Program-made: the position numbers and the translations under genes | The notes under the pieces: generated by a model | The model's input: only the letters and a program-made list of their open reading frames with translations | Database searches by the model: none | Told to the model about the DNA's origin: nothing | Assembly (NCBI GenBank): GCA_964017185.1 | Contig: OZ024870.1 | Location: 28,605,621 to 28,669,620 of the forward strand | Reading direction: 5' to 3' | DNA from: Rugalucina vietnamica | Lineage: Eukaryota; Mollusca; Bivalvia; Lucinida; Lucinidae | Length of the DNA stretch: 64,000 nucleotides | Part shown: one piece after another, positions 7,164-50,200 of the stretch | Position numbering within the stretch: position 1 is the stretch's first letter | Layout of the letters: each line of letters begins with the position of its first letter

Positions 7164-7164
<1 letters not shown>

Positions 7165-7788: not shown

Positions 7789-7797
7789 GTAAGTATT

Positions 7798-8312: not shown

Positions 8313-8333
8313 TTATTGCACTGATATCGGTGA

Positions 8334-8407: not shown

Positions 8408-8640
8408 TATAAAACCGATACCACGGTAAAAGGGCTTGATTTGGTATCAAGGCAATAATTGATTTTGAAAACTTTAAGGTAAGTGTGCAAAACTGCTTAA
8501 AATGAAAACAGAAAAGACAGCTTACAGCAACCCTTAATACGTTTTAGGACGGTACTTCTTCACAACCTGACCAAATTCAACTTTTAAAAAAGCTAAATTT
8601 AAAAAATGAAATGCTTACTAGTATGCATATTCTTAGATAT

Positions 8641-9952: not shown

Positions 9953-10028
9953 GCATGCGATGCTAAGTACCAGGTCATTTCAGGGCATTCAGCATGCTTA
10001 AGTCAAGCCTCCAACTTCGTTTCTGGTG
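9953..10028 (+). CDS. CAP-ZP gene exon 2 (N-terminal Cys motif)
   Basis: Acceptor TACTTTCAG|GC and donor GGTG|GTGAGT. The 25 whole codons read ACDAKYQVISG followed by a second Cys near residue 15, the N-terminal pattern I associate with molluscan CAP proteins just after the signal peptide. It starts in phase 0 and ends in phase 1, matching exon 3. A minus-strand frame over this stretch is a shadow. Confidence 0.8.
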
Positions 10029-11820: not shown

Positions 11821-11865
<45 letters not shown>

Positions 11866-19124: not shown

Positions 19125-22100
19125 GTGTCAGAGCACAAATATATTAAATATGAGGAAATGTCAACACCTTCTCTGTGAGGATTCAATACTTCAGTGCTTT
19201 TGCACTGATGTTGGCATGTGTGTACAGTGCACTAAATGAAGACCGAAAATGGTATCTAGAAACATCTTCAGGATCGTTAGCTCACCTGAGCCGAAGGCTC
19301 ACAAGGCGAGCTTATAGTATAGTAGTCGAGCCGGCGTCCGTCCGTCCGTGCGTCCGTCCACATTTTCAAACTTGAATATCTCTAAGACAACAAGGCCAAA
19401 TTTTATCTAAAGCATCATTGAGGAGGGGGAAAGGTTGTATTAGGTTTTGGGCCAGGTCGGATCAGAACTCTGGTTTCCATGGCAACAGATAGCTCCCATA
19501 GACAAACTTACAATGGGAAAAACATAAAAATCTTCTTCTCTGAAACCACAAGGCCAAGAGCTCTCATGTTTTGTGTGTAGCAATGTCTAGTGGTCCTCTT
19601 CATAAATCCTGCCAACCGTGCCCCTGGGGTCCATACGGGCCCCGCCCCGGGGGCGTCTTTGGGAAAATATAAAAAAAATCTTCTTCTCTGAAACCACAAA
19701 GCCCAGAGCTTTCATATTTTGTGTGTAGCAGTGTTTAGTGGTCCTCTTTATAAATCCTGCCAACCATGGCCCAGGGGTCAAAAATGACCCCGCCCCGGGG
19801 GTCATTAGCTCCCATAGACTTACAGTGGGAAAAATATAAAAAAAAAAAAAACTTCTTCTCCGAAACCAAAACGCCCAGAGCTTTCATATTTTGTGTGTAG
19901 CAATGTCTAGTGGTCCTCCTTATAAATCCTGCCAACCGTGCCCCTGGGGTCCATACGGGCCCCGCCCCGGGGGCGTCATGGGGAAAATATAAAAAAATCT
20001 TCTTCTCCGAAACCACAAGGCCCAGAGCGTTCATATTTTGTGTGTAGAAGTGTATAATGGTCCTCTTTATAAATCCTGCTTACCGTGCCCCTGGGGTCCA
20101 TACGGGCCCCGCCCCGGGGGTGTCATGGGAAAAACATAAAAAATAAAATCTTCTTCTCCAAAACCACAAGGCCCAAAGCTTTCATATTTTGTATGTAGCA
20201 GTGTTTAGTGGTCCTCTTTATAAATCCTGCCAATCATGCCCCTGGGGTCAAAAATGGCCGCGCCCCGGGGGTCATTAGCTCCCATAGACTTACAACGGGA
20301 AAAACATAAAAAAAAATCTTCTCCAAAACCACAAGGCCCAGAGCTTTCATATTTTGTCAGTAGCAATGTATAGTGGTCCTCTTTATAAATCCTGCCAACC
20401 GTGCACCTGGGGTCCATACGGGCCCCGCCCCGGGGGCGTCATGGGAAAAACTTTAAAAAAATATTTCTTCTCCGAAACCACAAGGCCCAAAGCTTTCATA
20501 TTTTGTTTTTAGCAATGTATAGTGGTCCTCTTTATAAATCCTGCCAACTGTGCCCCTGGGGTCCATACGGGCCGCGCCCCGGGGGCGTCATGGGAAAAAC
20601 GAAAAAGAATCTTCTTCTCCGAAACCATATGGCCCAGAGCTTTCATATGTTGTGTGGACCAATGTATAATACTCTCCTTTATAAATGCTGCCAACGGTGC
20701 CCCTGGGGTCCACACAGGCCACACCACAGGCATGTCATTATCTACCATAGACTTATAATGGAAATCTTCTCTGGAACAGCATGACACAAAGCTTGTATAT
20801 TTGATATACAACATTGTCATGTGGAGCTCTACATAAATCCTGCCAATCTCGCCCCTGGGGTCAAATATGGCCCCACCACGGGGGTCATTATAGGACCCTG
20901 ACCTTGTTAGATGATTTTTTCAAGTGAACCAAACTGGCAGAAAAGAGGATACACAATCCAGACAAGAACTCTTCTGCTGATTAAGTAGGGTTTCAAGGTC
21001 ACATGACCAAAATGGCCACCATACCCATATATGGTAAAAACCCCAATTACTTTGTCCAGTGACTGTACTTGTTGACTCTCAGGTGAGCGATCGTTGCCCC
21101 TGGGCTACTTGTTCAAATAAACTGTTCCCCCAAAACACCCTATGTGTTTCTAAAAGAGCTGCTTTTTCAGTAAAAGAACTTAAATATGCTAGGCAACGCA
21201 TAAAACAGAAATAAATGGTCAATACATAATTAGCAAAACAGGTTAATTGAGATCTAAAACCCCAATTTAAGGTTGCAGTAAAATTTTCTACATTTGATGA
21301 TGCATCTGTTGCAGTATACAAGTGATCATTTGTTTCGTTCATTGTTGTATCATGTAGTTCACACAGAAAATGTGCACTCACCCACCAAATATATATAACG
21401 GTTGATTTTTGTTTTATACACATTGATATAGTTATGATAAACTACGATTTGCAGAGCTGGGATGATGACATTGCTTTGGTGGCTCAAACTTATGCGGAGA
21501 ACTGTGTATTTGAGCACGACGACAGTTATAAACGTATGATTCCAGGTAAGTTTCTCAAGTTCTACATTTAGTCATGACCTTACAAATGATAAATGGAATG
21601 CAAACAACACGAGAAAATGTGGTTACCTGATTGGTGATATCAGTTTTGAATCAGTTTAGCACGGGTAATGCAAGATATCGTATATTCTGCTACTTTGAAA
21701 ATGGTGATTACCTTACAGCTCTCTCGACAGCTCTACAACCATTAAAAAGGTAATGGTTTTCATATTGTACGAGGGTCATCTAATGAGTTCTGACAATGAT
21801 CTCATATTTCAGAAGTTTCTATAAAATTACGTAAACATTTTTTTCTGTAAAATAAAGCCATGTAACATGTAAGTCTTTAAACTTTTCTGTTGTTCACCCC
21901 ATCTGTATTTAAGCCAATGCTAGCTGGCTGATCGCCTTGCTTGGAAAGAGCTGAACGTCCAGCTCTTCCTTTACGAAAACTGGCCCATGCATTATAGAAA
22001 GATTTATTTCAGCTGTAAAAATTGAAAATTTCATCAGAAATTGTTTGATATTTTTAATATTTTTGCTCAAAACCTTGAATGTGGGTACACGTTAGAACCG

Positions 22101-25100
22101 CCTCGGCAGTCAGACTATGACAATAACTTTAGCGAGGACGTAGACGATGATAACGATATAAATCGCAGAAAAATATTCATTCGTTCCTTACATCTTTATT
22201 AATGTACTGGCTAACAAGAAATTTCTCCAATTCTACATAGGACGCTATGATGTGGGCCAAAACCTTGCGGCTGCCGACTATTTTTCGTGGTCTGATGTGA
22301 TTTTTGTTAGCTGGCATGGCGAAGTAACCGATTTTACATATGGATCAGCACCGGCTGCTAATGCGGTCGTCGGCCATTACACACAGGTAAAGTGCCAACA
22401 CAACAATAACTGGTACCTATGGTGCGATTGCTTTGTTTGGTTCCCTCACGTGATAAAAAGGTACAAGTAGGCAACGATCAGGAAAAGGCACAATCAGAAA
22501 AAGATTCCCACTCCAAAAACCGAGGTGGGAAAAAACTAAATTAACAATCGGGTACTTATATAATGAAAACACATCGTAAGCCGAATGAGCAGCTATTTTC
22601 CCAATAGGCGGCCACTCAGCTACCTAAACCTAACTAAAAATATGAAAACTTACAGAAGGCGCCAACAGCACAAAAATTTTAAACACAAAGACATAAAGCA
22701 AACAGAACCACCACAGAAGTATCGCCTTGGAACGATCAGCAATATGAAATTACTGGGTAAAGTTTTCTGTGTAAATATTTTCCTCCGTTAGTCAACAATA
22801 TTGGTCTTTTGCTTCAAATTTTTAAAAAGTCAGAATGAATTTTTGTTGGTTAATAAGATGTTTTATCTGGAGAAGTTAAAATCGATAAATTTAGCCATAA
22901 AAGATGAGTTATCAGTCATGACCAAACCAGTAATCATCGGCCTAGCTTTATAATACAGTTTTATCATCTAGTCAAGTCAAATCAAGTCAAGTATATTTTA
23001 TTTAAGAAATAGATCAGCTCTATTAGTGATTTGTTGAGTAATAAATGATTTTATCCCGTTTATTGTGTGTTAGAATCGAAATAGATCAGCTCTAGTGCGT
23101 GAATTGTTGAGTAATATATCACTGTTTGGAGGTCAGTTGTAAAGCAGAGCAAATCACGAGCGCGCAGCGCCAGTGATTTATCTGCGTACAACAATTCACG
23201 CACTAGAGCTGATCTATTTCAATTCTAACACACAATAAACGGGATAAAATCATTTTAACCCTTCAGTTTCTTTAACTTTTCCACCACTGCACTGAAGAAA
23301 TCCCGCCAAACTTTTCACTGTACCGCAAATGTTTACATATGTTTGATACGTTTTGAACGCGTTGAAACGACGTTACACCGTCTAACGTCAAGGTAACGTG
23401 ACTTATGGGATAGCTGACGTCATTATTTAATCAAAATGGCGTCGAAAAGGCGCAAAGTAACGTCAATAAACGGGATAAAATCATTTTAACCCTTCAGTTT
23501 CTTTAACTTTTCCACCACTGCACTGAAGAAATCCCGCCAAACTTTTCACTGTACCGCAAATGTTTACATATGTTTGATACGTTTTGAACGCGTTGAAACG
23601 ACGTTACACCGTCTAACGTCAAGGTAACGTGACTTATGGGATAGCTGACGTCATTATTTAATCAAAATGGCGTCGAAAAGGCGCAAAGTAACGTCACGCT
23701 AACCTGCCCAGTGATTTATACCTCAATATATCACTGCACTTTACCATAGGCTTCTATAGGAAGGGTGTGTTAGAATAAAGTCTCATCTTGGTGAGTACAT
23801 TTTAACAAACATAAAATAATATCACATAAAATAACATCTACACCAAGTTATTCTTTACAGAATTATAGGAGACTATAAAATTGACATTTAAAATAATACC
23901 CCATTTGAATATATATACATGTTAAAAAAACAATTAACGATGTTAACATCACAACTTCAAGATTAAAGATATGTTTAAGAATAAAGAAGTAAGCCTCGGA
24001 AAAGACCGAGGACACATCCTTCACCCACACGAATGGGACAGGGAAAGTTCAAGTAGGTCGTTAGATACCAGCCCGCCATGAACTGGTACTAGAGCGTTAT
24101 GAAAACTTTTCCACGTACCACCCCGTCTCTCGAGGTAAACTATAAGCTGCTTTATAAGCGACAAGCAGCCCATAGGGCAACGAACAGGGAAATTTAACTT
24201 GAGACTTCAAACATTTTCCATCATAACTCTAGGGATTTTTTTTTCAGTCGCTCAGAGAAATTAACTCCACGGTCAGGAGACCAATTTTGCATTCATTCAA
24301 ACTTTTCTGAAATATTATTGCTCAAGAATTAAGTACTTCCAATTAAAAGAAACAACACAACACTATATATCAAACTTTCAAACACTCATTGGTATTCAAC
24401 TCTTGAGTAACTTTTGCCAGTTTTCGAACTCGTCCAAGATGTTAGGGTACATAGTACCTACAAGAACGATTACCGCAACATTTTTCCCATTATAAGTCTT
24501 TGGGGATTTACAGACATTCAATGACAGCTAACTCCGCTGTATGAGGTCGAATTTTGCCGAAATTGAACATATCCAATATATCCTAACTGTCCATGTAAAT
24601 GGTAAGAATGAAGAAGACCCGATAAAAAAAGAAGCGGATGTGGCCAAATTTTAAACTCTCGAACTCATTCGAGATTTCATTGTTGTTCTTGTTACTTGCA
24701 AAAATGATGAAGGTCCACTAAAAATAAAAGCCTTAGCGTTGCCACAATATATTCGTCATTTTAAGTCTATGGTGATTTTTGAAGATGCTTAAATCAGCTA
24801 TAAATCATGCAATCTAATGTCAAATCTAGCCGAAATTTGAACTCATCCAAGATATTCATTGTGCTGTTGTCCTTGCTACTGCCAAGACTAAAAGAATCTA
24901 TGATGGTGAGGGATCTCAGGCAAGTTTTCTGCCGAGGATGAGACTCGAATAATCTGAAAACGAGATTGAGATTTTCTTGTTGAGGCCTCAACGCCATCAT
25001 GGAATATTTTTTTCACCCATCATTTAAACCATTTTGTCAAATACAGTCTCAAGCAGCCATTTTGCTTTTACATGAAACAAAATGCAAACTTAACCAGTGA

Positions 25101-28100
25101 AAAAATAATAATAACATTAATAATAATAATAACATTAATTTTGTATATACACTTACCTTACAAAAATATTTAATCAGCATTTTGTTTGTGCATAAAATTC
25201 TCAGCAAAATTTAATTTTGAGATTTTTTATCAAAGCAATCACTCCTACAAACTTCCTGAAATTAACACCTACAAGTTTATGTTGACATCCAGCTTATCAC
25301 TTCCTTATATGGATGTACACACGAAGATGTACACTTCTATTGGCTAAATACAGAAATGATTGGCATTTTGAGACAGCTAAAATGTACTAGTATTGAGATA
25401 GAAATATCTCAGACAGGCACACAATGGGTGGGTGAGAAAGAAGAAAGAAGTCGCTAAAATGAAGTCGCTATGGTTACCACAACATTGTCTCCATTATTAC
25501 CCAATGTGAGCTATATATTGCCATGGAAACAAGAGTTCTCATCTGATCTGCTTTAAAATATGATGCAGGCGATCCCCTGCCCCTATGCTGCTTCATGTAA
25601 AAGATGACTGTAATGGGCCACCTAGTGTTGGAGATATTCTTACTTGAATGTCTGAACGCACCGACGCGTGCTTGGCGGACGGATAGACAATGCATAGTCT
25701 CATCCTATAAGCTTATCTTGTGAGTCTTCAGCTCAGGTGAGTTAAAACGTGTCGGAGTTAACTGAAAAAGTTCATTCCGCATACAAATTTGGCGAGTGTT
25801 ACGGATAAAGTATTTTTGTATTTATAAAGTTTCTCTTTTCTTTTAGGTGGTTTGGGCACAATCCCATAAAATTGGTTGTGGTTATGCTCAGTGTACGAAC
25901 CTAACTTATGACAACAATGGCAATGTCTTTCCAACAGGACATCTCTACGTTTGTAATTACGCACCAGCGTAAGTATGGTAAAATGCTGTCGCGTCGCACG
26001 GACTAGCTCTTTTCCAACAAGGTTACCAAATATTTTATTGTAAAGATTACGATGGACAGAATCAACAGAAAGCATAAAGATAATTCACAACAGAACCGCC
26101 TGTTATACACTGTAATAATTGACTGGCCACCTTTCAAAAAATAGCTGGTCAGTCAGCTTACCATATAGTTAGCTTTGTATTAGCACATGGCTGACAGTTT
26201 GGTTTTCCCCATCTCGGTTTGTAGGTGGAACTTCGATTCGGATTGCACCAGTTCCTTATCAATGATTAAGTTTTACCTTCTCTAAACAGTAACGAAATTA
26301 CGGAGAAGGTACGTAAGCAGGTACACATTTGAATGATGGTGTTCAACATTTGCAAAATGTTTTGAAAATTACGTTTAAAACACCTCATTCATCATCTGAG
26401 ACAAATCTAGCCCTGAGGTTATAAAACTTTTCATGCTCAGCTCAGCTGAGACTAAAGTTTATCCTGTTCATTAGCTTATTAGCAGGATAAATTACAGGCT
26501 TTGGAGCTCTAGACATTCATTTTCAATATATTTTGGATATTTTAAGTATATATTTATTAGCAGTTGAAATTTCAAGCTCAGCTGAGTTGAGCATGAAATA
26601 CATTTTTTAAGCCTGGGGCCTGGTGTAACTGCCGAAATGCTAACTTCCAACTGTGCGCTTTTGTAAAAGTGTGTTTCGAAATCGATCTTGGTGCGCGCTT
26701 ATTTGAGATTTTGCGCTAAATACAACAAAATTGAGCCACCTCGTGGGAAAACCAACAATGTGGTTTTCGAACAGGTCCGACACAAACCGGGCTGTACAAG
26801 CACAGAAAAGAGCTAGAAGCTTGAAATTTCGGACTTAAGTAGAAGGTGAACTGTACTATCCGAGTAGCGAAAACAAAGGCGCTGATCAGCAGCTGATCTG
26901 CGTCTTTGTTTTCGCCTATTCAAATTGTTGGTTTTCCCATGAGGCGGCTCAAGTACGGTTTTTATTGCCTTACAGGAAATCGACAAAAACACGCTTTGAA
27001 TAGGAAGTTGCCAAAGGAAGATTACTTCAATCTTGGACACATGCATGCGTACAGTTTTACACACATACAGAATCTCTAGATTCTAGACAAATCGCATACA
27101 TTTGTCATGTTTGTATAGTTCGGCTTTGAGCCTTTATTTGCAATTTCGAAATGTAATAATATTAAAGTACTTTCCATAAATATATAATCCATAAACCGAT
27201 GTTCGCGCTTCTATTGTCTGAACACCATCTTTCAGAAACTGCATTTTTCGAAATCTCACTTTTCTGAAACACCACAAGAAAAACATGACCATGCCATCGT
27301 TTTGCAACTCATGAGTCCTAAAAAGTGCCACAAAAAGTTTGAAAATCGGTTCACTAATAAAATAATTATGCCCATAAATCATTTTGAATAGGCATTTTGC
27401 ATGTGCAGGGGAGGTAATCCGAACACCTTAAAACTGAAAATCAAACAAATCTGTGGAATAATTTCAAGAGTTTGGCGTTCAGCTATGCATACAAAACAAT
27501 TTTATTTTGGTTTGGTGCATTTTAGTTATAGAAATAATCAATTTAGATTTTTCCCGGTAAAATAGTTACTTCCCTTGTTGGTAATTTTACAATGGAAAAA
27601 GCCTATTCAAAAATAATTTCTTGCATAAAATTTTTATTTGTTAACCGATTTTCAAAATTTTTGTGGCACTTTTTAAGACTTTTGGAATGCAAAATGGTGA
27701 CATGATCATATTTTTCTTGGGGTCTTTCAGAAAAGTAAGATTTTGAAAAATGCAGTTTCTGAAAGATGGTGTTTAGACAGTAGTTTAATTTACTTAAATA
27801 TTTTATGATTACAGAGGAAATGACGCAGCAAGTCTATACACTCCCTACTCCAACGGCACGTCGTGTGGAGACTGCCCGAATACATGTGATTCGACATACA
27901 ACAGATTATGCGGTAAAGTTTGTAACTTAATGTCACCTTGAAAAAAATTATCACGGGTCAATCATTTAGACTCCATATAATACAAATTAAATACGCAGGA
28001 AGGATTGGCTCCGACCCGATCTACATGACAGAAAGATGTTGACTGGGACGTTAAACAACAATACATATAAAGGAGAGACATAAAGATGTACTAAGTTTCT

Positions 28101-28624: not shown

Positions 28625-31600
28625 CATAAACTTCGACGTTTAATATTTTCTAGTATATTCTTGCAGATTGTACGGCGAATGACTGCTATGTAGCACCGAT
28701 AACTGTCCATCAACGATAACTGTCCACCATGGACACTTATCGTTGCAGTCGCAACGATAACTGTCCACAAGCTAAATGGACAGTTATCGTTGAGCATGTA
28801 GGTTTATAATTTACTTTCAACGATATCTGTCTATTTTCGTAGAACACCACGATATTTGCTTAATGATGTTAAACCGTTTCGGTTAGTGCATACCTTGACA
28901 ACCACTTACCGAAAATCATTCATACTTGGGCCATAGGCACCCTGTATGCCAGGCTTTCATTCCAAGGCAATGAATCCCGGGGTGGGGCTTGAGGTTAATA
29001 TACAGACCACCATAAAATGGCTTTTCTGAGGTCTAATTTTGCAGGTGTCTATGTCTTGACAGCATAAATACTTTGATCATATCATACGTACCCTTCTAGA
29101 AGTCCAGATCTTGGCAACTACTTATCAGAGAAGATTTAAACTTGGACCATAGGTACCCTGTTAGGCTGGCTTTCATTCTATGACATCACACCCATATGTC
29201 TATGCCCGGGGGTGGGACTAGAGGTTAAAATCTAGAACACCTTCTGTTCTGTGGTATAGTTTTCTAGAAGTCTAGATCTTGGCAATAACTTATCAGAGAG
29301 GATTTAAACTTGGACCATAGATAACCCGTAGGGTTGGTTGCCTTTCATTCGAGGCTCCTAGGTCCATGGCGGGGGGTGGGGCAAGAGGTTAAAATCTAGA
29401 ACATTTTCAAAATTTGGCTGTTTTGCGATATAATTTTCTAGAAGTCATTTTCTTGACAACCGCTTACCAGAAAGCATTCATACTTGTACCAAATCTATCC
29501 TGTAGGGTTGGTGCAATGGGCTCCTGTGTTCATGCTAGGGGTGGAGTTAGAGGTTAAATCTAAAACACTTTCATAAATTAGCCAAAATTTACATTTTAAT
29601 TCATATCTTGATAGCTGTAGATCAGAAAGCATTCATGCTTGGGCCATTGGTGCACTGTCAACTTAGCTTTTATTACGTGATATCCGACACCAGGGTCCAT
29701 GCCTGGGGGTGGGGCTAGAGGTTGAAAACTAGAACAGCTTAAAATGTTTGTTTTTTTCTTTTACACCTTGACACCCAGTTGGTATAAGAACATACTTCTT
29801 TCGGATAATAAGTATGTATGACCAGACCCTTAACCCAAAAGTAGTCATAGGTCACAATGACCTAATTTCATGGTCCAGTGATTTTGTCTTATATTTTGAC
29901 ACTCAGTTGGTATAGGAAAATGCTTCTTTCAGATAATGAGTAAGTATGAATAGAATTTTGACCTGAAAGTAGTCATAGGTCACAGTGACCAAATCTCATG
30001 GTCCACTGATTTTGTCTTATATCTTGACACTTAGTTGGTATTTGAACATGCTTCCTTCAGATAATGAGTGAGTATGACCAGACCTTTGACCTAAAAGTAG
30101 TCATAAGTCACAGTGACCTAATTTCATGGTCCAGTGATTTTGCCTTATTTTTTGACACTCGGTTGGTATAGGAACATGCGTCTCATAGATTATGAGTGAG
30201 TATGACCAGATATTTGACCTGAAAGTTGTCATAGGTCACTGCGACCTAATTGTCTTATATCTTGACACTTAGTTGGTATTTGAACATGCCTCCTTCAGAT
30301 AATGAGTGAGTATGACCAGACCTTTGACCCAAAAGTAGTCATAGGCCACAGTGACCTTATTTCATGGTCCAGTGATTTTTCCTTATTTTTTGACACTCGG
30401 TTGGTATAGGAACATGCTTCTCATAGATAATGAGTGAGTATGACTAGATATTTGACCTGAAAGTTGTCATAGGTCACTGCGACCTAATTTCATGGTCCAG
30501 TGATTTTGTAATATATCTTGACACTCTGTTGGTACAGGAACATGCTTCTTTCAGAAAATGAGTAAGTTGTCATAGGTCACAGTGACCAAATCTCATGGTC
30601 CACTGATTTTGTCTTATATCTTGACACTTAGTTGGTTTTTGAACATGCTTCCTTCAGATAATGAGTGAGTATGACTAGATCTTTGACCTAAAAGTAGTCA
30701 TAGGTCACAGTGACCTAATTTCATGGTCCAGTGATTTTGTCTTATATCTTGACTCTCAGTTGGTAAAGGAACATGCTTCTTTTAGATAATAAGTAAGTAT
30801 AACCAGACCTTTGACCCAAAAGTAGTCATAGGTCACAATAACATAATTTCATGGCCCAGTGATTTTGTCTTATATCTTAAAACCCAGTTGGTATATGAAA
30901 ATGCTTCCTTCAGATAATGAACGAGTATGACCAGGCCTTTCACCTTAAAGTAGTCATAGGTCACGGTGACCTAACTTCATGGTCCAGTAATTTTGCTTTA
31001 TAGCTTGACACTCAGTTTGTATGTAAGCATGCTTCTTTCAGATGAGTGAGTACGACCAGACATTTGACCCAAAAGCAGTCAAGGGACTTTGTGACCTAAT
31101 TTCATGGTCCATTGATTTTGCCTTATATCTTGATGCTCAGTTGGTATATGAACAGGCTTTTCTCATATAATTTGTGAGTATGACCAGCCTTTTGACCAGA
31201 AAGTAATCATTGGTCACTGAGATCAAATTTCATGGTTTTGTGATTTTGCCTTGTATCTTCTTTAGCAAGAGATGTGTGATCAAGATTTTACATGGTTATG
31301 GGTCGATAGCACCGAATTTTTGACTTCAAAATAGTTGTAGCTATATTTCATAGTAAAATGAATTTGCCTTATATCATCATGGCCTTGGGATGTCTGTGTG
31401 GTGAGTTAGAGTTGGCCCCAGTTTGACAGAACCAAATGCAGTCGAGCTACGCTGTCATGCGACAGCTCTTATTATTTTTGATAGGATTGCGTTTAGAGAT
31501 CTGAAAAACATACATATCGTTTATGAATATCATTTTTCGTATACGAACCAACGGACACACTGCATAAAATGGGTTTGGACTGTATTCGTTTGACCCTAAA

Positions 31601-34600
31601 TGACGTTTGAATCGGGAAATACAGAATTTTCAACAGATATTTTTAATTCATTTGTTTACATGCATGGTTATATTCATCTTTTGTATATTTTATTAGAACT
31701 GATGCAATCTTTAACCTGTTTTATCATATCTTGCAGACATCCTGAAAACCTTGCTAAGGCATGAAGTACCCTTTTGTAGTTCTTGACGACAGGGTCATAT
31801 TTATTGTGGTTGCTGTGTCCGGAGGTAGGTGGCATAGCTATCGGAGGACCTGCTTTAAGGTGTTATCGTCGATGTCTGAGGACGACAGTTTTACTATGTG
31901 CACTATAAAGCATCTCACAGCTGTAGACAGACATCGACTACTTTTAAACTTTTAAAACAGAGAACCCGAGTGTTTACAGTTTCATAAAGGAAGAAATAAA
32001 ATTTGATTAACATATTTTGTTGATATAATACCTACCATTGTCTCAATCTGTAAAAGGCATATCGAGTTTTTTTGCTTAATTCTAACGTTTATTTCAATAG
32101 CATACGATACGATACAACCTATCCTATCTTCTCCACAGCAGGACATTTTATATCTGATTGCATGCACTTCATAACAGTTTAGTGTGATCAAGTTTTCGTC
32201 CTGATCATGGGTACTTTTACCTGTCGTAAACAGTTATCGTTGACAATGCAACTATAAGTGTCTGTAATGAACAGTTATTGTTGCAAACTCAACCGGGTGT
32301 GTCTATCATGTAATGTTTGAATATTTCATTTACTGATTCACACATCCAGATAGTTTAGTGTATCACGAACAGATATTGTTTAAACGTTTTTCACTGATTT
32401 GAATGATTTCATCTGTGGTGAACAATTATCGTTGACTGTGCAGCCGCTTCTGTCTGTAATGAACATTTATCGTTGCAAAGCCAACTGATTCTGACAATCA
32501 TGTACAATAATCTTTGAATGTTTAATGACTGAATTAGACAGCCTCTTTTTCAAATAGTTAAGCGTCTCGTCTATCACGAACAGATATTGTTTAAACATTT
32601 TTCACATTTACTGATTCACACATCCAGATAGTTTAGTGTATCACGAACAGATATTGTTTAAACGTTTGTCACTGATTTGAATGATTTCATCTATGGTGAA
32701 CAGTTATCGTTGACAGTGCAACCGCTTCTGTCTGTAATGAACACTTATCGTTGCAAAGCCACCCGATTCTGTCCATCATGTACAATAATCTTTGAATGTT
32801 TAATGACTGAATTAGACAGCCTCTTTTCAAATAGTTGAGCGTCTCAGATACAGTAATTGTTTGAAGTTTGGCTGTTTTGAATCATTTTACCCGTCGTGAA
32901 CAGTTATCGTTGACAATGCAACCATAACTGTCCGTAATGAACAGTTATCGTTGCAAACTCAACCTGTTCTGTCTATCATGTACAATAATATTTAAAAATT
33001 GCATTTGCTGATTCACACATCCAGGACAAGGCTTTTCAGATAGTTAAGTGTGTCAGGAACAGATATTGTTTAAACATTTTCACCTTTTTGAATGATTTCA
33101 TCTTTGGTGAACAGTTATCGTTGACAGTGCAACCGCTTCTGTCTGTAATGAACACTTATCGTTGCAAAACCACCCGATTCTGTCCATCATGTACAATAAT
33201 CTTTGAATGTTTAATGACTGAATTAGACAGCCTCTTTTCAAATAGTTGGGCGTCTCAGGTGCAGAAATTGTTTGATGTTTGGCTGTTTTGAATCATTTTA
33301 CCCGTCGTGAACAGTTATCGTTGACAATGCAACCACATCTGTCTGTAATGAACAGTTATCGTTGCAAACTCAACCGGTTCTGTCTATCATGTACAATAAT
33401 ATTTGAAAATTGCATTTACTGATTCACACATCCAGGACAAGGCTTTTCAGATAGATAAGTGTATCAGGAAGAGATATTGTTTAAACATTTTCACCTTTTT
33501 GAATGATTTCATCTTTGGTGAAGTTATCGTTGACAGTGCAACCGCTTCTGTCTGTAATGAACACTTATCGTTGCAAAGCCAACCGATTCTGTCCAACATG
33601 TACAATAATCTTTGAATGTTTAATGACTGAAGTAGACAGCCACTTTTTAAATAATTGAGCGTCTCAGGTGCAGTAATTGTTTGAAGTTTGGCTGTTTTGA
33701 ATCATTTTACCCGTCGTGAACAGTTATCGTTGACAATGCAACCATATCTGTCTGTAATGAACAGTTATCGTTGCAAACTCACCCGGTTCTGTCTATCATG
33801 TACAATAATTTTTGAATACTGCATTTAGTGATTCACATATCCAGGACAAGGCTTTTCAGATAGTTATGTGTATCACGAACAGATATTGTTTAAACATTTT
33901 TCACCGATTTGAATGATTTCATCTATGGTGAACAGTTATTGTTGACAGTGCAACCGCTACTGTCTGTAATGAACACTTATCGTTGCAAAGCCAATCGATT
34001 CTGTCCATCATGTATAAAAATCTTTGAATGTTTTATGACTGAATTAGACAGCCTCTTTTCAAAGAGTTGAGCGTTTCAGATGCAGTAATTGTTTGAAGTT
34101 TGGCTGTTTTGAATCATTTTACCCGTCGTGAACAGTTGTCGTTGACAATGCAACCATATCTGTCTGTAATGAACAGTTATCGTTGCATACTCAACCGGTT
34201 CTGTCTATCATGTACAATAATATTTGAAAATTGCATTTACTGATTCACACATCCAGGACAAGGCTTTTCATGTAGTTAAGTGTGTCAGGTACAAATATTG
34301 TTTAAACATTTTCACCTTTTTGAATGATTTCATCTTTGGTGAACAGTTATCGTTGACAGTGTAACCGCTTCTGTCTGTAATGAACACTTATCGTTGCAAA
34401 GCCAACCGATTCTGTCCATCAGGTACAATAATCTTTAAATGTTTAATGACTGAATTAGACAGCCTCTTTTCAAATAGTTGGGCGTCTCAGGTGCAGAAAT
34501 TGTTTGATGTTTGGCTGTTTTGAATCATTTTATCCATCGTCAACAGTTATAGTTGACAATGCAACCATATCTGTCTGTAATGAACAGTTATCGTTGCAAA

Positions 34601-37600
34601 CTCAACCGGTTCTGTCTATCATGTACAATAATTTTTGAAAATTGCATTTGCTGATTCACACATCCAGGACAAGGCTTTTCAGATAGATAAGTGTATCAGG
34701 AACAGATATTGTTTAAACATTTTCACCTTTTTGAATGATTTCATCTTTGGTGAACAGTTATCGTTGACAGTGAAACTGCTTTTGTCTTTAATGAACTCTT
34801 ATCGTTGCAAAGCCAACCGATTCTGTCCATCATGTATAATAATCTTTGAATGTTTAATGACTGAATTAGACAGCCTCTTTTCAAATAGTTGAGCGTCTCA
34901 GGTGCAGTGTTTGTTTGAAGTTTGGCTGTTTTGAATCATTTTACCCGTCGTGAACAGTTATCGTTGACAATGCAACCATATCTGTCTGTAATGAACAGTT
35001 ATCGTTGCAAACTCAACCGGTTCTGTCTATCATATACAATAATATTTGAATATTGCATTTAGTGATTCACATATCCAGGACAAGGCTTTTCAGATAGTTA
35101 TGTGTATCACGAACAGATATTGTTTAAACATTTTTCACCTATTTGAATGATTTAATCTATGATGAACAGTTATCGTTCACAGTGCAACCGTTTCTGTCTG
35201 TAATGAACACTTATCGTTGCAAAGCCAACCGATTCTGTCTATCATGTACAATAATCTTTGAATGTTTAATGACTGAATTAGACAGACCCAGACACCAAGC
35301 GGGAAAGATGTAGACCCAACAAAGACAACATAATAGATCAACAGAAGGTTCAGGATGCCTGAACATGAAAATGTGACGACACACACAAAGAGCAAGATGA
35401 CTAGCTCTTTCCCAGGAAGATAGCCATTCGGCTTGCTTCAACTAAATACAAATTAAGCTTATACAACAGAAGTCGACATACCAAACATAAAACATAAAGA
35501 ATCACAGTAGAACCGCCTTGGAACGGTCAGCAAAAGAAATTTTACTGGAGGGCTTAAATCGATTTTACAGGTGCCAGACAGTTATCGTTGCAAACTCAGT
35601 CGGTTCTGTCTATCATGTAAAGTAATGCATGGATTTTTCATTTACTGATTCACATATCCAGGGAAAGGCTTTTCAGATAGTTTTGAATATCACAAAGAGA
35701 TATTGTTTTAACATTTTTCACGGATTTGAATGATTTTATCTTTGGTGAACAGTTATCGTTGACAGTGCAACCGCGTGTGTCTGTTATGAACCATTATCGT
35801 TGCAAAGCCAACCGATTCTGTCCATCATGTACAATAGTATTTGAATGTTTAATGACTGAATTAGACAGCCTTTTTTCAAATTGTGAAGCTTCTCAGGAAC
35901 AGTTATTGTTTGAAGTATTGCTGATTTGAATCATTTTACCTGTCGTGAACAGTTATCGTTGACAATGCCACCATATCTGTCTGTAATGAACATTTATCGT
36001 TGCAAACTCAACCGGTTCTGTCTATCATGTACAATAATGTTTGAATATTGCATTTACTGATTCACACATCCAGGATAAGGCTTTTCAGATAGTTTAATGT
36101 ATCAGGAAGATATATTGTGTGAACATTTTACACTGATTTGAATGATTTCATCTTTGGTGCACAGTTATCCTTGACAGTGCCACCGCTCTATCCCTTGATG
36201 CTTTATGCCAAGTTTCAAAATTTTAGGCCGTCTGGTTCTAGAGAAGATTTTTTAAAAGTTTTACCACCATATATGGGCATGGCGGCTATCTTGGTCATGT
36301 GACCTGGACCATTTATGTAAACTTTCGTCCCCGCTTCATAAGGAATTAAAATATAAAGGTTTGATCCTTTGGAAGCAGTAAAAACATTCAAAGGGAGATA
36401 GTATGGACTATATTGCGCAATTTCGGGTAATGAACCCTCATCAGTAGCCCTTTTTAAACCAGCAATAGTTTGGCTTTGATTAGCCAAGCGGTTTCAGAGA
36501 AGAAGAGGTTTGAATATTAAGGAAATATACATGTATATAGACCCGGGGCAAGGGCAGACAACTCCCTGGGGTCAATTGTTTTTCAGAAACATAAATCATC
36601 TGTCCATTTGCCCATTCCCAGCAAGTTTTCCCCATTAAACAACATTTTCCCAATTTTCCCTATTCAAATGCATTGGCGACCTAAGTTGACCTTGCTGTAA
36701 AGTAGGTCACAAGGTCATCCCAGATTCATGATTTATATAAATTTTGTATAAGTCCATCCCCTGATGCTTCATGTCAAGTTTCAAAATCATAGGCCTTCTG
36801 AAGATTTTTAAATGTTTTTACCATACATGGGCATGGCGACCATCTTGGACATGTGACCTTGACCATTTATATAAACTTTCGTTCTCTCTTCCTAAGTATG
36901 CCCCACATGAAGTTTGGTTTCATTGAAGAAGGGGTTTCAATATTATCGAAATATACCTGTATATAAGCCCGGCAGGGGCAAACAACCCCTAGGGACCAAA
37001 ATTTTTTCAGAAACATAAATCTTTTGTCCATTTGCTCATTCCCTATTTAAATGCATTGGCGACCTAAGTTGGCCTTGCCGTAAAATAGATCAAGGTCATC
37101 CCAGGATCATGATTTATATAAACTTAGTAGAGCTCCATATCTTGATGCTTCTTGTCAAGTTTCAAAATCATAGGCCTTCTGGTTCTGGAGAAGATTTTTA
37201 AAGGTTTTTACCATATATGGGCATGCCTTTGCTGCTCGCAGCCCGAGGAGGGACCCACACTGGCCACCAAATGTCAAAGGAAAGGCCCGACTGGGACTCG
37301 AACCCAGGATCCCGCGCTTACCGTGCGAGTGCTCTAACCCCTGAGCTACCGAGCCACACGGTCAGCCGTTTACAGAAATCGGGTGCTATCGACCCATTAT
37401 CAAGTTACATCTTGTTCAAACATCTCCTGGTCTAGAAAATATAAAACAAAATCACTGAACGATGAAATATAGGTCACAGTGACCCATATTTATTTTGGGA
37501 TCAAATGTGGGCTAGTAATAATTGACAATCAAATAGCATCTTGTTCACACATCTCTTGCTGTTAGATATACAAGGCAAAATCACTGAACCATAGATTGCC

Positions 37601-40600
37601 AATGATTAATTTCGGGTCAAAAGTCTGGCCATACATGTACATGTACTAACTGAGCATCAAGTAATAAGGCAATATCACAGGACCATGAAATTAGGTCACA
37701 AAAACCTAGGACTTTGGGGCCAAAGGTCTGGTCACTCATTATCTGAAAGAAGCATGCTTACATACTAACTGAGTGTCAAGCTATAAGGCAAAATCACTGG
37801 ACCATGAACTTAGGTCACTGTGACCTATAGTTACTTTCATGTCAAAAATCTGGAAATACTCTTTCACTATCTCAAGGCAGCATGTTCATATACCAACTGT
37901 GTGTAAAGCTATGACAAAATAACTGGACCATGAAATAAGGTCACTGTGAGCAATGACTATTTTGGGTTAAATATCTGGTCATACTTACTCATTATCTGAA
38001 AGAAGCATGTTCCTTTACCATCTGAATATCAAGCTATAATACAAAATCAATAGACCATGAAATTAGGTCTCTGTGACCTATGACTTCTTTCCGATCAAAG
38101 GTTTGGTCATACTGACTCATCATCTGAAAGAAGCATCTTCATATACCAACTGAGTGTCAGGATATAATGCAAAATCACTGGACCATGAAATTAGGTCATT
38201 GTGACATATGACTTCTTTCGGGTCAAAGGTCTGGCCATACTCACTCATTATCTGAAAAAAGCATGTTCCTATTCCAACTGAGTGTCAAGATACGAGGCAA
38301 AATCACTGGACCGTAAAATTAGGTCACACTGACCTAAAACTACTTTCAGGTCAAAGGTCTAGTCATACTCGCTCATTATCTGTAAGAAGCAAGTTCATAT
38401 ACCAACTGAGTGCCAAGATAAAAGGCAAAATCACTGGACCATGAAATTAGGTCATTTTGACCTATGGCTACTTTTGGGTCAAAGGTCTGGTCATACTCAA
38501 TCATTATCTGAAAGAAGTATGTTTTTATATCAACTGAGTTTCAAGGTATAAAAGAAAAACATTTTAGATGTTCTAGTTTTCAACCTCTAGCCCCACCCCA
38601 GGCATGGACCTTGAGTATCGGATGTCATGCAATAAAAGCTAAGTTGACAGTGCACCATTGGCCCAAGTATGAATGCTCTCTGATCAACAGCTGTCAAGAT
38701 ATAGACTAAAATGTAAACTTTGGCTAATTTATGAAAGTGTTCTAGATTTTAACCTCTATCCCCATCACCAAGCATGAACTCAGGAGTCTGATGCTAGCGC
38801 ATGGAAACCAACACGACATGGTATATGTGGCCCAAGTATGAATGCTTTCTGGAAAGCGGTTGTCAAGATATGGACCTCTAGAAAACTATATCGTAGTACA
38901 GCCAATTTTTGAAGGTGTTCTAGATTTTAGCCTCTGGCCCCACCCATGGGCCCAGGGGCCGGATGTCACCCTACAGCTCCAAGTTTGAATCCTGTCTGAT
39001 AAATAATTGCCAAGATCTGGACTTTTAGAAAACTATGCCACAGTACAGCCACAATCTTTGAAGGTGTTCTTGATTTTAACCTTGGGCATGGATCCATAAG
39101 ACGGATGTCATGGAATGAAAGCCACCTCTATAGGATTCCTATGGTTCAAGTTTGAATCCTCTCTGATAACTAGTTGTCAAGATCTGGACTTCTAGAAAAC
39201 TATACCGCAATACAACCAATTTATAAAGGTTTCCTAGATTTTAACCTCTAGCCCCACTCCCAAGCATGGACCCAGGGACCCGATTTCATGGAATGTAAGC
39301 CAACCCTACAGGGTACCTATGGGCCAAGTTTGAAATTTCTCTGATGAATAGTTGCCAAGATCTGGACTTCTAAAATATATACTGCAGTGTGACGCGGACA
39401 CGGACACGAACAAGAACGGGAACGCGTACGACCGAGGTTACTACAACAGCCCTTTGCACTTCGAGCAGTCGAGCTAAAAACCAACCGTACAGAGGGCATA
39501 TGATCCAAGTTTAAATCTTGTCTGCTGACTGGTTGTCTAGATATAGACTCCTTGTGTTTTTTTGTTTCTTTTCAAAAATGGACAGTTATCGTTGACACTG
39601 CAGGTCATATCAACTACAGTAACAATAAGTGTCCATGGTGGACAGTTATCGTTGAAAAATCAACGATAGTTGTCCAGTGGACAGTTATCGTTGCGGCTGC
39701 AACGATAAGTGTCCATGGTGGACAGTTATCGTTGATGGACAGTTATCGGTGCTACACTGCTATAATTACGGCACATTTGATGTAAACACATGTTCATGTT
39801 CGTGTTACGAGAGTTTCTACGTCGGGGATTCGTGTGTTTGTAAGTTATAAAGACACGCAGTTGCTTTCGTCCTGTTGTATCTGGGACGTCATGTTTTAAA
39901 AGCACTATGTCCTCTATGATTTCTCCCTTTTTAATTTAATTATTTTTTTATCTATTTATTTTTATTTTATTTAGTCATTTATTTATTTATTTTGAGGGGC
40001 GGGGGCTTCATTATTTTCTTGAAACTAACAGCCTGAGTATATCAAAAGTTTTGGTCAAGGTCGTTGATGATGACTCAGACATGAGCGGTTAACCAGTAAT
40101 AGGCGGGGGCCCTCTGCCAGATCTATGCGGCGTTCTTCACGTGCACCGAGATGTGTCTGTATATACTGTGAAACATGATGTAACGTTTTAGCCTGCGGGC
40201 GAAATAAATTATTATAGTGCACAAAAACTAAGCGGGACTATCTCCTGCTTATGTAACTGGCAGTGCTCTTGTCCCAACAATAATTGACTCCTCCGCCAGC
40301 AAGGTATAGCCACGCCCACCCCTATTTCCTTAGACAAACATTGTGTTTTTGCACCTATATTTACCTGTAAAAAGCACGTGTTGGTTTGTTTGTCTAACCC
40401 ACGTGTTGTCTAACCGTCATTGACCGTTAGCTAATGTGCAGATTTGAATGGTCAATATAAAATGAATATTAATGATGGGTGGTTTGACGGAGGACTCAAT
40501 TGGGGCTAATGTCTCTTCAACATTCTGGAACCATATTGGAACTGTACGTGGCATTGTCATTCCCAACTTAACTATAATTACTTTATGTCGTATGGGCTTT

Positions 40601-43600
40601 CTAACATCTTAAACCTATGGCTGTGGAATGACGCTAGTTTGTTAAATGACTAGAATTACAGTCTGGGTTGAGAAAGGGCACTTATTGAATGCCCGAATAG
40701 CAATAAATGAAAAGCGGAAATGACAATGATTAAGCAAATGAACAAAACTCAATTCAAATATTTGAAACTGAACAAACATTTGACAAATCTGGGCGAAAAT
40801 AGGTGCCATAAATGTAAAGTCCCAGTCCCACTGCGCTTACGATCACTTAAGATCGCAATACGATTGTTTTAATATTAATTTGAGGGTCATTTCTTTGACC
40901 TCGATATGCAAATTAAGAAACAGGAAACTCGTTGGAAAACATTTTACAAATTTTGCATACGCAGTCTTATCAATAAACTTATGATAAGACAATTGTACGA
41001 CTGCTTACGATTCAGTGGAACTGGCACTGAAGGAACTGACAATACACCAAAACAGAACGCAGTTTCATGCAATTAGACATATTTGACCGGGTGAGTCAGC
41101 TCGATAAGTAGCGTGTCTACTCCAATACGAAGGATACTCGTGGTCGAGATTTCGTGAACAATGCTTATTATGGAATTAATTCGCGTAATGTGAAACTTAC
41201 GACTCACCAGAGTATCTTTATGACACATGTTGATTTTCGCGACAGATTTCCCCGGGGGGGGGGGGCACTCCCTGGTAAGCAGTGTACCGATGCGTGATCA
41301 AAAAAACGATGAGAAAGGGTACTTTTTTTCAAGAAGGGCAGTGCGCAGCGCTGACATCATTTAGGGTAGGCAAAATGTCGTTTTTGTGGAAAAAGGGTAT
41401 GTTTTTTACAATTCTGCTAAAACGCTGTGAAAAGGGGTGGACCGAGGCGTCCTTGGCCGATATGTTTTGGGCCGAAATGACTAAAATGTCTAAAACCTAA
41501 GGGATAAGATATGATTTTCCCTTTCTGTTCAACAATGTGTGTTGCTTCAATAGAAATTATTGTTTCTGCTAATTGAGTAGTTCATACAAATAAAAATGGT
41601 TTGTATTAAATCTTGTCTTTTATACCCTGCTCTCCATAATGCTTGCTATATGTAAGTGCTTGGTATTTATCTACTATATCAAGATTTATTTCAAGTATGT
41701 ATAGAAGCCTAGAGGTGTAGTGGGAAAGCTGCTTGCCTTGTAAACCAGGGGTCAATTCCAGGCTTCTCCAGCTTTTCGTACAAGACTTAAACTAATTTCC
41801 TATCGCCATATTACCTTAGCTGTTTAGTGGGACAAAACACAAAATTAACCAACCAACCATTATTTCATATATATTTGTGTCAATTTTTTGTGTACATTTG
41901 AACAAATTCAGATGCTGAGAGCAAAGCTTGAAAGCCCTGAAACAATTTAAACCCCCAATACTTTATTACTGACAGTTCCAAGGCGATACTTCCTCTGTGG
42001 TTAGTCTGTTTCTCGTTTCAGTGATGACAATTTCTTTTGTATGTGCATTTTAAGGTTTACCATCTTTTCTTATTGTACCTGTATGTTGCCTATTTGTAAC
42101 TTTAGCTATTTCATGTGTTGATTGCATGACCAAATGTTTGTTTATGATCATATCAGTTCCACATTTTTAAGCATTTTAACCCAACAGAGCCAAAGTCTCA
42201 AAGGTGATCTTATAGGATAGGCAGGTACCTGGCATCCATCTTCCGTTACTGTAGTCTGTCTATATTTTAAAATTACTTCTCTGAAGCCATCAGGCAGATT
42301 GTTTGCATATTACACATATAGCATCTTCACGTGGTTATAAAAGAATTATTGCATTCCAGTGTCAGTGGAAAGGGGTACTTTTTGACGGGACACAGTGGAA
42401 AGGGTCACATTTTAAAGCAAACACAGTGAAAAGGGGGTCAAATTTTAAATTTCACACTGTTTAGGGTATGTTCAACAATCCTTTGATCACGCATCGGTAC
42501 ACTGCTTACCAGGGAGTGCCCCCCACCCCCGGGCAGATTTCTCTAGCCTTGCAGACTATTTTGTAAGATTCTTATATTCTTTTTGTTATTGCAGTGAATT
42601 GCAGTGCTGTTTCTAATGGTGGCTTCTGTTCTGATTACAACATCACTCACTGCAGCATGTATTCAAACTTGCCATTTCTTTGCCCGGATGATAGCACGTG
42701 TAACTTCTGTCCAGGTAAGTATAGTCACACACATATTGTTACGAGCAAGCGTAACTAGACAGAAATAAACAGATATGCGACCCTCAATGACCTCAAAATG
42801 TTCTAAGGTAACTGGCTAATCCAGCAAAGAACAACCAACAAGTTTTCAAACTTAATAATTTAATAAACAAATAAATGAAATTAATACAAATAATTTACTA
42901 AATAAATACATAAATAAATAAATCAGTAACTTACAGAACAAATGTCAATCAATCCTTGTCCCTCAAAATTTCAGTTCACTGATGTCCTCAATCCAGTTTC
43001 CAGAACTCAAATCCATATGAGCACAATATATATGTTCATAGTTAGATTATAATAATACACAGAAATAATTTAATCCAAACAAGTGAAACACGCAAAATAT
43101 AATCATTAACTGACTTCGGATTTCTGAATGAATCAGTCTAAATTGAGACCTGTATACATAGATCTGAGGAATTGTCTCCTACATTCCAGTAAGATTATAT
43201 TATAAACTGTTTCTATCTAGAACAGTAAAGAACATGACAGATGCTCTTCAGAACCACCTGGAAAGAAAAACTTCCAGAGGGTTCAAGGGCCGAAATGACC
43301 ACTAAGAATTACATGTAACCCTAGATCACTGGAAGGTTAAGGAAAATCTACACATGTACAAAACATATTATTAATATATGGTGATAAAAATAAGCTACTT
43401 CAGTTTCATCTGGAATTTTTTATAATTAATGTGCTCATAACTTCTTAATTATATAATAGTTATAAAACTAACCAATGGCACACTTCTATCAAGCTCTGGA
43501 CTCTATAAATTCTGGAAACGAACAACATAAAATAAAATATACAATCAAGGTAACTTCGCTTTGATCATACTTGCACAAGTAAAACTTTCATCAACGAATA

Positions 43601-47244: not shown

Positions 47245-50200
47245 GTATGACTCTTGCAGAACCAACTCCAGACATGACTGAGAGGAAATGCTTTTCAAAT
47301 GTCCTTACGGTGAGAGTCCTTAAGAGTCGCTGGACCGAAACGACTCGTTCTGTTGAGCAGAGCCTTTGATCCGAACACGCCTATATTTAATGGAGAAAGT
47401 CCGAACGCATCTTATCTACGATGGCCTGCATGGATCATAAAATTTCAAAATCCACAGATTTTAGATTTTAATTTTTCTTTGCAAAAGCTTTCGTCACACA
47501 AAAAGCGATTAAAATGAATAACAATAAGGACCAATTATGGCTTGTATAGTAAAAAAACATAATCTTAAAGTACTTTTTAAAGAGATGCAGTTTTTTTGCC
47601 TTTTTCATCTTCCATATGGGAAAAACCCGGATGCAGGTCAAAAATGATCTGAGATGTCTTCGACAAATAAGCAATGAGTTTAATTTTTCTGATGTTCTTT
47701 GAGCTATGAAACTGTGGTTCGCTACTTTGCACGCGACCCACTGTGGTTCATAGCTCCATGAACATCAGAAAAATGAAATTCATTTCTTAAAACATTGAAT
47801 CATTTCAATTGATACTCTCTGAACCCCCACCCCCTCTCCTCCATTACGAAAACATGCCCATACAGTAAACTGAGATTTTTAGCTTTAAAAATTGAGAATG
47901 TTAGGCTGAGAAAATTTGATATTTCTCTTATTTTTGCTCAAAACATAGATCGCCAAGGCGGTTCTAACGGGTACCCACATTCTAAGTTTTGGAGCAAAAA
48001 TAAGAAAAATAGGTATACCCCTGCATACCCCAGTTTTACAATATACAGGTGGGGTTTGAGGGGGTATTCGTTGCACGAACATGTTTTCCAGATGTTACTA
48101 TGAAAAAGGGAAATTCAAATTTTTTACCCTTTAAAATCAGAGTAAATTCAGCCTTCGCTCCACGATGATGTAAATATAACAAACCAATCAGAAATACTAT
48201 TTTTAATTTCAATAAACTTGTTTCTGATCTTGATATCCATGCTAATACTCCCAAGTCTTGAGATTGTAAAGATTCAAAATATGTTTATCAACCAGCCGTA
48301 CATATAGTTACTGGAAATTTAAAAATAATTTCGGATTCTAGAATTCGCAAAATTGTTTCTAAAGGTCCAAAATATAGATTCCCTTCCTACATTAATTTCG
48401 ACAAATAGAGAGGAGATTGCATCTGCATTAAATGATTTCGGTAATCGTTGATGTAAACGAGAGGGTGTTGAGGATAATGCTCTTAAAGAATAGAAAAGAA
48501 GTATCTTCACTATCGTGGATAAACGTATTAAGTTTTATTCACAAAATACTTATCTTTTACCTCCTAAACCCAAATCGTCATTTAGGCATTTGAAGCAGGG
48601 TATCCAAGAATTTCATAGAAAGTATGTCTTGGTTCCGGCAGACAAAGCCGCAAACAATGTTGTTGTCGTTTGTAGGCTTCTCTACGTTAACACCTTAAAA
48701 CAGGAGCTTGATGGTACCAGGGCTTATCTGGCGACAGATACTGATGAAGTGTCTGTAGTTAATGCCCACTTAAACGATTTACCTGTTAAGTTTTCTGTTT
48801 GTGTCAATGAAGGCCAAGACAAACGTCCTACGATGTATTGGTTACCTAAGCTTCACAAAACACCATACAAAGCTAGATTTATTGCAAATTCTAGCTCTTG
48901 TACTACCACTGAACTTTCTAAATTATTAACTTCCTGTCTTACTGCTATCAAATCTCATGTTATAAGATACTGTGAGACAGTGTATGAAACTTCAAATAAA
49001 AATTGGTTTTGTTCAATAAAAAATTCTGGTGAGGTGCTCAGTAAATTGAAGTGTAGAGGGTTCCGTGCGACAAGCTTGTCCACGTATGATTTTTCTACTC
49101 TGTATACAACATTACCACATAATCTAATAAAAGAAAAACTTCTGGATTTGATAGAGTGGACCTTCAAAAGGGCATTAAAAACTATGGTTCACTTTATTTG
49201 GCATGTAATTTTCACTTCCTCTGGCCAAAGTCGGTATACACTTTGGTCATGTCAGAATGTGTGCGACGCCTTGTCCTATCTCCTTGATAATATTTATATT
49301 AGATTTGGGACCAAGTTATACAGACAAATTGTTGGAATTCCGATGGGTGCAAATTGCGCACCTCTCGTAGCTGATTTATTTTTATACTGCTACGAAAGAG
49401 ATTTCATGGATTCTCTTAACCATGATAATCAAGCTAATGTTATCGAGGCTTTTAATTCCACATCTACATGTAGGTACCTCGATGACCTTTTGAACATTGA
49501 CAACCCTTATTTTGAAGGTATGGTCAATCAAATTTATCCACCTGAACTTCAGTTGAACAAAGCCAATATCTCAGATACCGAAGCCCCCTTTTTAGATCTA
49601 CATCTTTCTGTTGCAAATGGATTTGTTTCTTCTAAAATTTATGATAAGCGCGATGACTTTGATTTTGATATAGTAAATTTTCCTTTTTTGGATGGTGACG
49701 TTCCTCGTCGTGCTTCTTATGGTGTTTACATTTCGCAACTTATTAGGTTTGCTAGAGTCTGCAATCATGTTACAGACTTCAACGCTCGAAATAAATGTTT
49801 AACGGCAAAACTTCTCCAACAGGGCTATCGGTATCATAAACTTCGAAAAACCTTTTCTAAATTTTATCGTAGACACTATGAATTGATTTCCAAATATAAT
49901 GTTGGGTTAAAGACGCTTTTAAGTGAGGGCCTTTCGGAACCTGAATTTTATGGTGACTTGGTTTACAAATTTAAGAAACTTATAGGAATTAATGATTTTT
50001 CTTTTCAGTTCAGAAAAATCATAACACGTTACAGACGTATAGGTTATAACTTGAATGTTATGCGACAGTCTGCATGCTTAGTTTTTAACCCAATCATGGT
50101 TGATAACTATGCTGCCTTCTTTAATTGCACGCCGGTGGGTCGGGCGTCAGACTCTATGATGGCCCCGACTTAAAGCTATTCATTTTAGTTGGTTGGGGCC

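Follow-up and report, generated by a model that had tools for sequence, protein, structure and literature searches.

What interrupts a conserved coding exon in the bivalve Rugalucina vietnamica, and how was so large a sequence brought there? The question is raised by a stretch of 64,000 nucleotides of contig OZ024870.1 (assembly GCA_964017185.1, positions 28,605,621 to 28,669,620, forward strand), which is called the window here. A sequence of 11,068 bp with terminal inverted repeats (TIRs) and the ends TGTAGC...GCTACA occupies positions 28689-39756 of the window, and it is very probably a large non-autonomous DNA transposon that was inserted recently. The bases at 28690-28768 and the reverse complement of 39677-39755 were identical at 78 of 79 positions, direct repeats flank the element, and homologous proteins continue unbroken across the site. 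An initial annotation of the window, which had described a TIR element inside a coding exon with a target duplication, was therefore confirmed in its main point.

The ends of the element were searched for in the genome (1.09 Gb in 47 contigs). Forty of 652 candidates were scored with a left query of 111 bases and 40 of 731 with a right query of 196 bases, and all of those scored matched at 99% or more. The terminal 37-mer occurred 136 times in exact form (72 forward and 64 reverse), whereas its reversed control gave no match, which excludes chance. The initial annotation had called for such a search and had held that a lack of other copies would count against its view; 136 exact ends were found. 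One hundred of them were listed by position, on contigs C1 to part of C11, and among these listed ends 74 formed 37 pairs less than 20 kb apart (128-18,264 bp, median 10,062), 36 of the 37 pairs spanning 6-18 kb. Twenty-two other long copies and a copy of 128 bp were read whole, and six more were read in part. More than 20 further sites, with different duplications, showed the same architecture. In the left 2.9 kb, nineteen copies differed by 0.45-0.98% from the majority sequence, with 300 singleton variants against 35 shared ones; this sample comprises 19 of 23 copies, the four with altered structure having been dropped. We read the low and star-like divergence as a recent burst, which agrees with the annotated youth of the insertion, although the copies most similar to the query ranked first and the sample thus leans towards young copies, a point against this dating.

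The limits of the element were determined by comparing copies. In the window, the 8-bp sequence ACTGCTAT stands flush outside both 79-bp ends. A T precedes GTAGCA at the left end and an A follows TGCTAC at the right end (TACTAC in one copy) in 23 of 23 copies, all of which were found with queries lacking those bases; ten further copies were found with a pattern starting with T and give no independent test of the terminal T. Both bases are thus part of the element and the TIRs are 80 bp long, the left one at 28689-28768 (+), starting with TGTAGCACC, and the right one at 39677-39756 (-), finishing with GGTGCTACA. When T and A are counted as element, the target-site duplication (TSD) of the window is the 6-bp CTGCTA, at 28683-28688 (+) and 39757-39762 (+). 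With these boundaries, ACTGCTAT is explained as CTGCTA together with the T and A of the element, the target carrying an A and a T by chance. Accordingly, the annotated inverted ends with a single mismatch were retained but lengthened from 79 to 80 bp, the flanking direct repeats were retained but shortened from 8 to 6 bp, and the span of the element was set at 28689-39756.

The duplications were then compared in 33 copies (the 23 copies, nine further end pairs and the 128-bp element). Exact duplications were present in 28 of them (18 of 6 bp, 8 of 5 bp and 2 of 7 bp), and the remaining five fit a duplication with one mismatch. In a control in which the flanks of different copies were mispaired, exact repeats of at least 4 bp appeared in 2 of 1056 combinations. 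The target consensus was NWGCWN, with W in 27, G in 25, C in 22 and W in 28 of the 33 right flanks. With inverted ends and duplications at many independent sites, the element is a DNA (TIR) transposon.

A superfamily with longer duplications, such as hAT, Mutator, P or KDZ/Zisupton, would apply if the true duplication were 8 bp. This reading takes some support from the flush ACTGCTAT in the window, from three more of the 23 copies with 8 flush bases and one with 9, and from the placement of foldback elements mostly in Mutator and of Galileo in P, as given in excerpts of the published accounts (PMC4079207, PMC3573991). It is nevertheless unlikely, as the T and A recur in 23 of 23 copies and, once they are assigned to the element, 28 of 33 TSDs are exact at 5-7 bp. 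The genome gave only two KDZ matches, one of them on C1-C10 and away from the listed ends, in a search that did not extend to hAT, Mutator and P. KDZ/Zisupton elements make TSDs of 8 bp and had been considered first for the apparent 8-bp duplication; the 6-bp duplication and the position of the compared KDZ match led to their rejection.

The interrupted exon belongs to a CRISP/CAP-type gene, as seen from the sequence and from tblastn. Its left piece lies at 28667-28688 (+) and its right piece at 39763-39839 (+), followed by the splice donor GTAAGT. Residues 221-257 of the homologous protein P0001, a continuous stretch, mapped to both sides of the element, at 28660-28689 (10 residues, 70% identical, E 25, which is weak by itself) and at 39746-39838 (E 2e-6). 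Other parts of P0001 mapped in order before the element, at about 9929-10030, 10600-10692, 21419-21553 and 22222-22389 and further at about 25847-25969 and 27804-27911, and after it at 42594-42722; these coordinates are the limits of the matches, not exact exon limits, and the E values were 2e-10 to 0.004 except at 28660-28689. Open frames at the exons of the gene were observed through these matches. The oyster protein Mr30 (P0022) also mapped to the right exon piece by tblastn (E 0.001), and the joined exon aligned with P0001, P0002 and P0022 continuously across the insertion site, which bears out the annotated in-frame rejoining. The composite exons matched the CRISP structure triflin (PDB 1wvr, E 1.5e-24) and Pfam CAP (E 2e-5, 25.8 bits, cut-off 21.1), and Pfam recognised EGF domains in exons further downstream. 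These results place the interrupted exon in the cysteine-rich region of a CRISP/CAP-type protein, so that the annotated coding exon was upheld but its EGF-like identity was not.

Since the frame read straight into the element would stop after nine codons, this allele of the CRISP/CAP-type gene is expected to be a loss-of-function one unless the insertion is spliced out. Splicing would leave 21 in-frame bases (seven residues) in the transcript, and the gene might then still work. A GT starts at 28690 directly after the codon TAT, and the right end contains a candidate acceptor AG at 39741-39742; from 39743 onward, the exon can be entered without a stop codon (LSVLHCYNYG...). To judge from these sites, such removal is improbable: by eye, the donor TAT/GTAGCA is far from consensus and no clear pyrimidine tract precedes the AG, and the seven extra residues would add a cysteine to a disulphide-rich domain.

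The interior of the transposon is layered. The left arm passes from repeats of about 165 bp to 128-bp tandem repeats, the right arm has these in inverted order, and the core contains an array. The arms measure about 2.5 kb on the left and 2 kb on the right, and single inverted blocks in them reach 499 bp at 85%. The outer left arm (28894-29659, +) consists of degenerate repeats of about 165 bp, for which repeat comparison gave an inverted partner at 38557-39396, and the inner left arm (29754-31287, +) of 128-bp tandem repeats, several of which carry the palindrome GGTCAnnnTGACC. Copy comparison showed that the left part of the core (31290-32214, +) is shared throughout with more than three other copies, while copy C1c is without it from about 31530 on. 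Repeat and motif scans placed the satellite-like core at 32215-36190 (+), the units of 411 bp lying at 32625-35285 (+). Beyond a tRNA-like sequence at 37283-37355 (-), which is probably derived from a short interspersed nuclear element, follow the inner right arm (37634-38599, -), with 128-bp tandem repeats inverted to the left arm and up to 85% complementary to it, and the outer right arm (38557-39396, -). Long inverted tandem-repeat arms around a variable middle are of the foldback-like structural class. The length of 11,068 bp, annotated as very large for a non-autonomous element, is made up by the inverted arms and the satellite-like array.

A 16-bp motif, CAACGATAACTGTCCA, was present at 50 sites (up to three mismatches) in the element and at none elsewhere in the window. 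Six sites are near the left end, eight near the right end and 36 in the core, where 35 of 36 have the same orientation and most lie within the 411-bp tandem array. The left cluster (28694-28833, +) contains four forward and two reverse sites and the right cluster (39579-39751, -) three forward and five reverse; all 23 copies shared these numbers, whereas the core sites ranged from 0 (in C1c) to 41. Nested hairpins at the ends gave z scores of -8.6 on the left and -9.3 on the right, and none of 200 shuffles was as strong. The palindrome GGTCAnnnTGACC corresponds to the oestrogen-response-element consensus. All nine of its occurrences in the window lie inside the element (29850-38462), and the 128-bp arm repeats hold eight of these. 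A first-order random model of the element predicts 0.007 sites, although sites in repeat units are not independent; the copies of the family carry 4-15 each.

The copies are variable in the middle. Arrays of 2.5-7.6 units of about 411 bp were reported by TRF in 21 of 23 copies, the exceptions being C8a and C1c. The 128-bp copy consists of two bare ends with its own 6-bp duplication, ATGGTA; the ends thus seem sufficient for movement, and the core appears dispensable. Inserts in C1b, C5 and C8a have border overlaps of 7, 5 and 9 bp that resemble duplications and, together with an insert of 7.6 kb in C7b, account for some of the variation in length. Two other long copies, whose middles of 9.5 kb were read, consist there mainly of expanded array, about 7.7 and 8.2 kb to judge from the alignments; one of these has about 1 kb that matches no other copy, adjoining a simple repeat that holds the only long open reading frames (ORFs) of this copy. 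Nine samples of 801 bases were read from the copies at C1:95028008, C6:61524439 and C5:54962383, and four were array (L050, L053, L055 and L056).

No long ORFs were found inside the element of the window, where stop-to-stop frames that lie entirely within it reach at most 100 amino acids. Stop-to-stop frames of at least 120 amino acids were absent from 17 of 23 copies, and those in the other six lie in the array, a tRNA-like stretch and nested or foreign inserts, as judged by eye and, for C1c only, by Pfam. No transposase was recognised among ORFs of at least 110 amino acids in the 23 full copies (by eye, with Pfam on C1c only) or in the stretches read of the six partly read copies. C7b (16.9 kb) was considered as an autonomous copy and rejected, its long ORFs, which are reverse-transcriptase- and endonuclease-like by eye, being located in the 7.6-kb insert within the array. 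C1c (13.8 kb) was likewise rejected as the autonomous form: its usual core is replaced by a foreign core of 8.9 kb (element positions 3330-12234; L030, L031) that occurs in one of 23 copies and has no recognised transposase. This foreign core carries a DNA polymerase B fragment (PF03175, E 8.7e-21), a zinc-knuckle ORF and an end that by eye resembles a long interspersed nuclear element (LINE), and it may be a fragment captured from a virus-like element. A separate open frame of 92 amino acids at 36215-36493 (-) in the element of the window resembles an exon of a secreted protein by eye, with no match in Pfam.

The polymerase fragment between the arms of C1c would also be expected if the family were non-autonomous Polinton/Maverick elements. 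These elements carry polymerase B, integrase, ATPase and capsid genes between AG...CT ends, in contrast to the TG...CA ends found here. Integrase-type transposition with a 6-bp TSD, as given for Polinton in excerpts of PMC10045372, fits the present family. Membership was rejected and is quite improbable, given the ends and the occurrence of the polymerase ORF in only one of 23 copies, within the foreign core that ends LINE-like. That the assembly misjoined repeats inside the exon is highly improbable, for, repetitive as the element is, an exact junction duplication, conserved ends and the same architecture at more than 20 sites with different duplications oppose it.

The transposon was compared with known systems through excerpts of the relevant papers. 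The foldback element Tetris of Drosophila virilis (PMC4079207) is similar in its long inverted tandem-repeat arms of variable repeat number, its lack of coding capacity, its array units that share a short stretch with the terminal domain, and an autonomous partner that was not found; only three structurally complete Tetris copies are reported there. It differs in having a TSD of 8-10 bp (here 5-7, mode 6) and its array in the arms, whereas the motif-bearing array is in the core here. Membership of Mutator, as for Tetris, was rejected, as it requires a TSD of 8-10 bp. Galileo of the P superfamily (PMC3573991) shares long, internally repetitive TIRs and strong length variation, and its repeats have been suggested as secondary transposase-binding sites, but it has a 7-bp TSD and a known P-type transposase, as opposed to TG...CA ends and no transposase found in the present copies. 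GingerRoot and IS3EU (PMC10045372), both defined by their transposase, of which none was found here, have a TSD of 6 bp, the mode in this family (18 of 33), and GingerRoot ends are occasionally TG...CA, as in this element. The TG...CA ends exclude typical IS3EU but not GingerRoot. TGTNR ends are described for Ginger and Gypsy-type integrase elements (PMC2836005); TGTAG was present in 23 of 23 copies, and TIRs of about 40-270 bp in Ginger1 and 50-180 bp in Ginger2 are counted as similar to the 80 bp here. The Ginger targets, CCGG/CCGT or RTATAY in the same source, differ from NWGCWN, and membership of Ginger1/2 was rejected on duplication length and target.

Dada elements, with a TSD of 6-7 bp in small RNA genes and no TIR, were also rejected, in view of the 80-bp TIR and a window site in a protein-coding exon. 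The TU elements of sea urchins are modular foldback elements with short-motif repeats in their ends, an 8-bp TSD and 15-bp repeats; the present family is like them, on this description, in its modular foldback form and its end motif repeats and differs in TSD and repeat length. Three strings of the ends and the motif gave no match in the literature searched, with Repbase outside the search, and neither the terminal 20-mer nor a 25-mer from within the TIR matched in viral contigs. We regard the element as an unclassified non-autonomous TIR transposon that is foldback-like and satellite-bearing.

As for the enzyme, ends of the TGTNR type and a 6-bp duplication make an integrase-like (GingerRoot/IS3EU-like) transposase the most likely candidate, and whether an integrase-like enzyme moves the family is, in our judgement, an evenly balanced matter. 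In the genome, 134 matches to rva_4 integrases were obtained (150 of 242 candidates scored). Several points weigh against the proposed mobilisation. The assignment to an integrase type would follow from the termini and the TSD and from nothing else. In the copies and stretches read, no transposase with these ends was found, and the annotation's proposed search for an autonomous relative with the same ends was negative to that extent. When 62 of the 136 rva_4 and KDZ matches, namely those on C1-C10 (the other 74 lie on C11 onward), were compared with the listed ends, from which mutated ends are absent, none was within 79 kb of one. Complete IS3EU families always and GingerRoot mostly have TA...TA ends (excerpts of PMC10045372) in place of TG...CA, and the TSD is 4 bp in Ginger and 5 bp in TDD-4/5 (excerpts of PMC2836005) against 5-7 bp. 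Finally, of the samples from the three long copies, L052 and L054 matched other copies weakly and L048, L049 and L051 matched none; some long copies were read in part, so that an autonomous gene may lie in the stretches beyond.

If the transposon is moved in this way, a transposase supplied by another element would bind the paired 16-bp motifs at the ends and join the TG...CA termini to the target at a W-GC-W site, where the two strands would be cut with a stagger of 6 bp (5-7); repair would then make the target duplication. Everything between the ends would be cargo, namely the inverted arms and the 411-bp array of motif-bearing units, and this array, whose length is not the same in all copies, may provide secondary binding sites for the transposase. 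A more far-reaching proposal, which we consider doubtful, would make the family a superfamily or major lineage of eukaryotic DNA transposons not yet described, with TGT...ACA ends of palindromic 16-bp sites, 6-bp NWGCWN duplications and an integrase-like transposase. Its non-coding members of 10 kb would be maintained as preferred substrates through an internal satellite that had grown out of the binding site at the ends, and the transposon would spread the satellite as cargo.

Several other features were recorded in the genome and the window. Frames of rva_4 occur in inverted pairs 9-12 kb apart (C3:1767390/1776231, C3:40272126/40283686 and C6:59342554/59353815), with 377-437 amino acids each and two stops in one of the six, as if a transposase lay in each arm of large elements; a separate multi-copy rva_4 set has frames of 291 amino acids with near-equal scores. 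A KDZ transposase match at C4:59931228-59931806 (-) lies in an open frame of 1048 amino acids. In the window, related tandem arrays of about 145-150 bp at 19513-20755 and 59471-61112, about 39 kb apart, are located on either side of the element, and a perfect tandem duplication of 231 bp lies at 23233-23696. SECIS_1 (RF00031) matched at 50148-50215 (+) and 18463-18530 (+), with 39.0 and 37.8 bits (cut-off 35), overlapping the stop codons of two 93%-identical reverse-transcriptase copies (Pfam RVT_1, E 0.097 only), which we take to be Penelope-type. One of the two has two in-frame stops where the other has tryptophan, and a role of selenocysteine is purely hypothetical.

Among non-autonomous elements, it is usually the small ones that succeed. 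In this family, nearly all of the end pairs span 6-18 kb, and the copies read are essentially non-coding and, in the 19 compared, very young, though the 128-bp version was also inserted. The family therefore offers a direct test of whether internal arrays of the terminal motif improve mobility, and a test of how satellites come to be scattered across a genome. Because it lies in a conserved exon, the insertion provides a clean marker for population and splicing tests.

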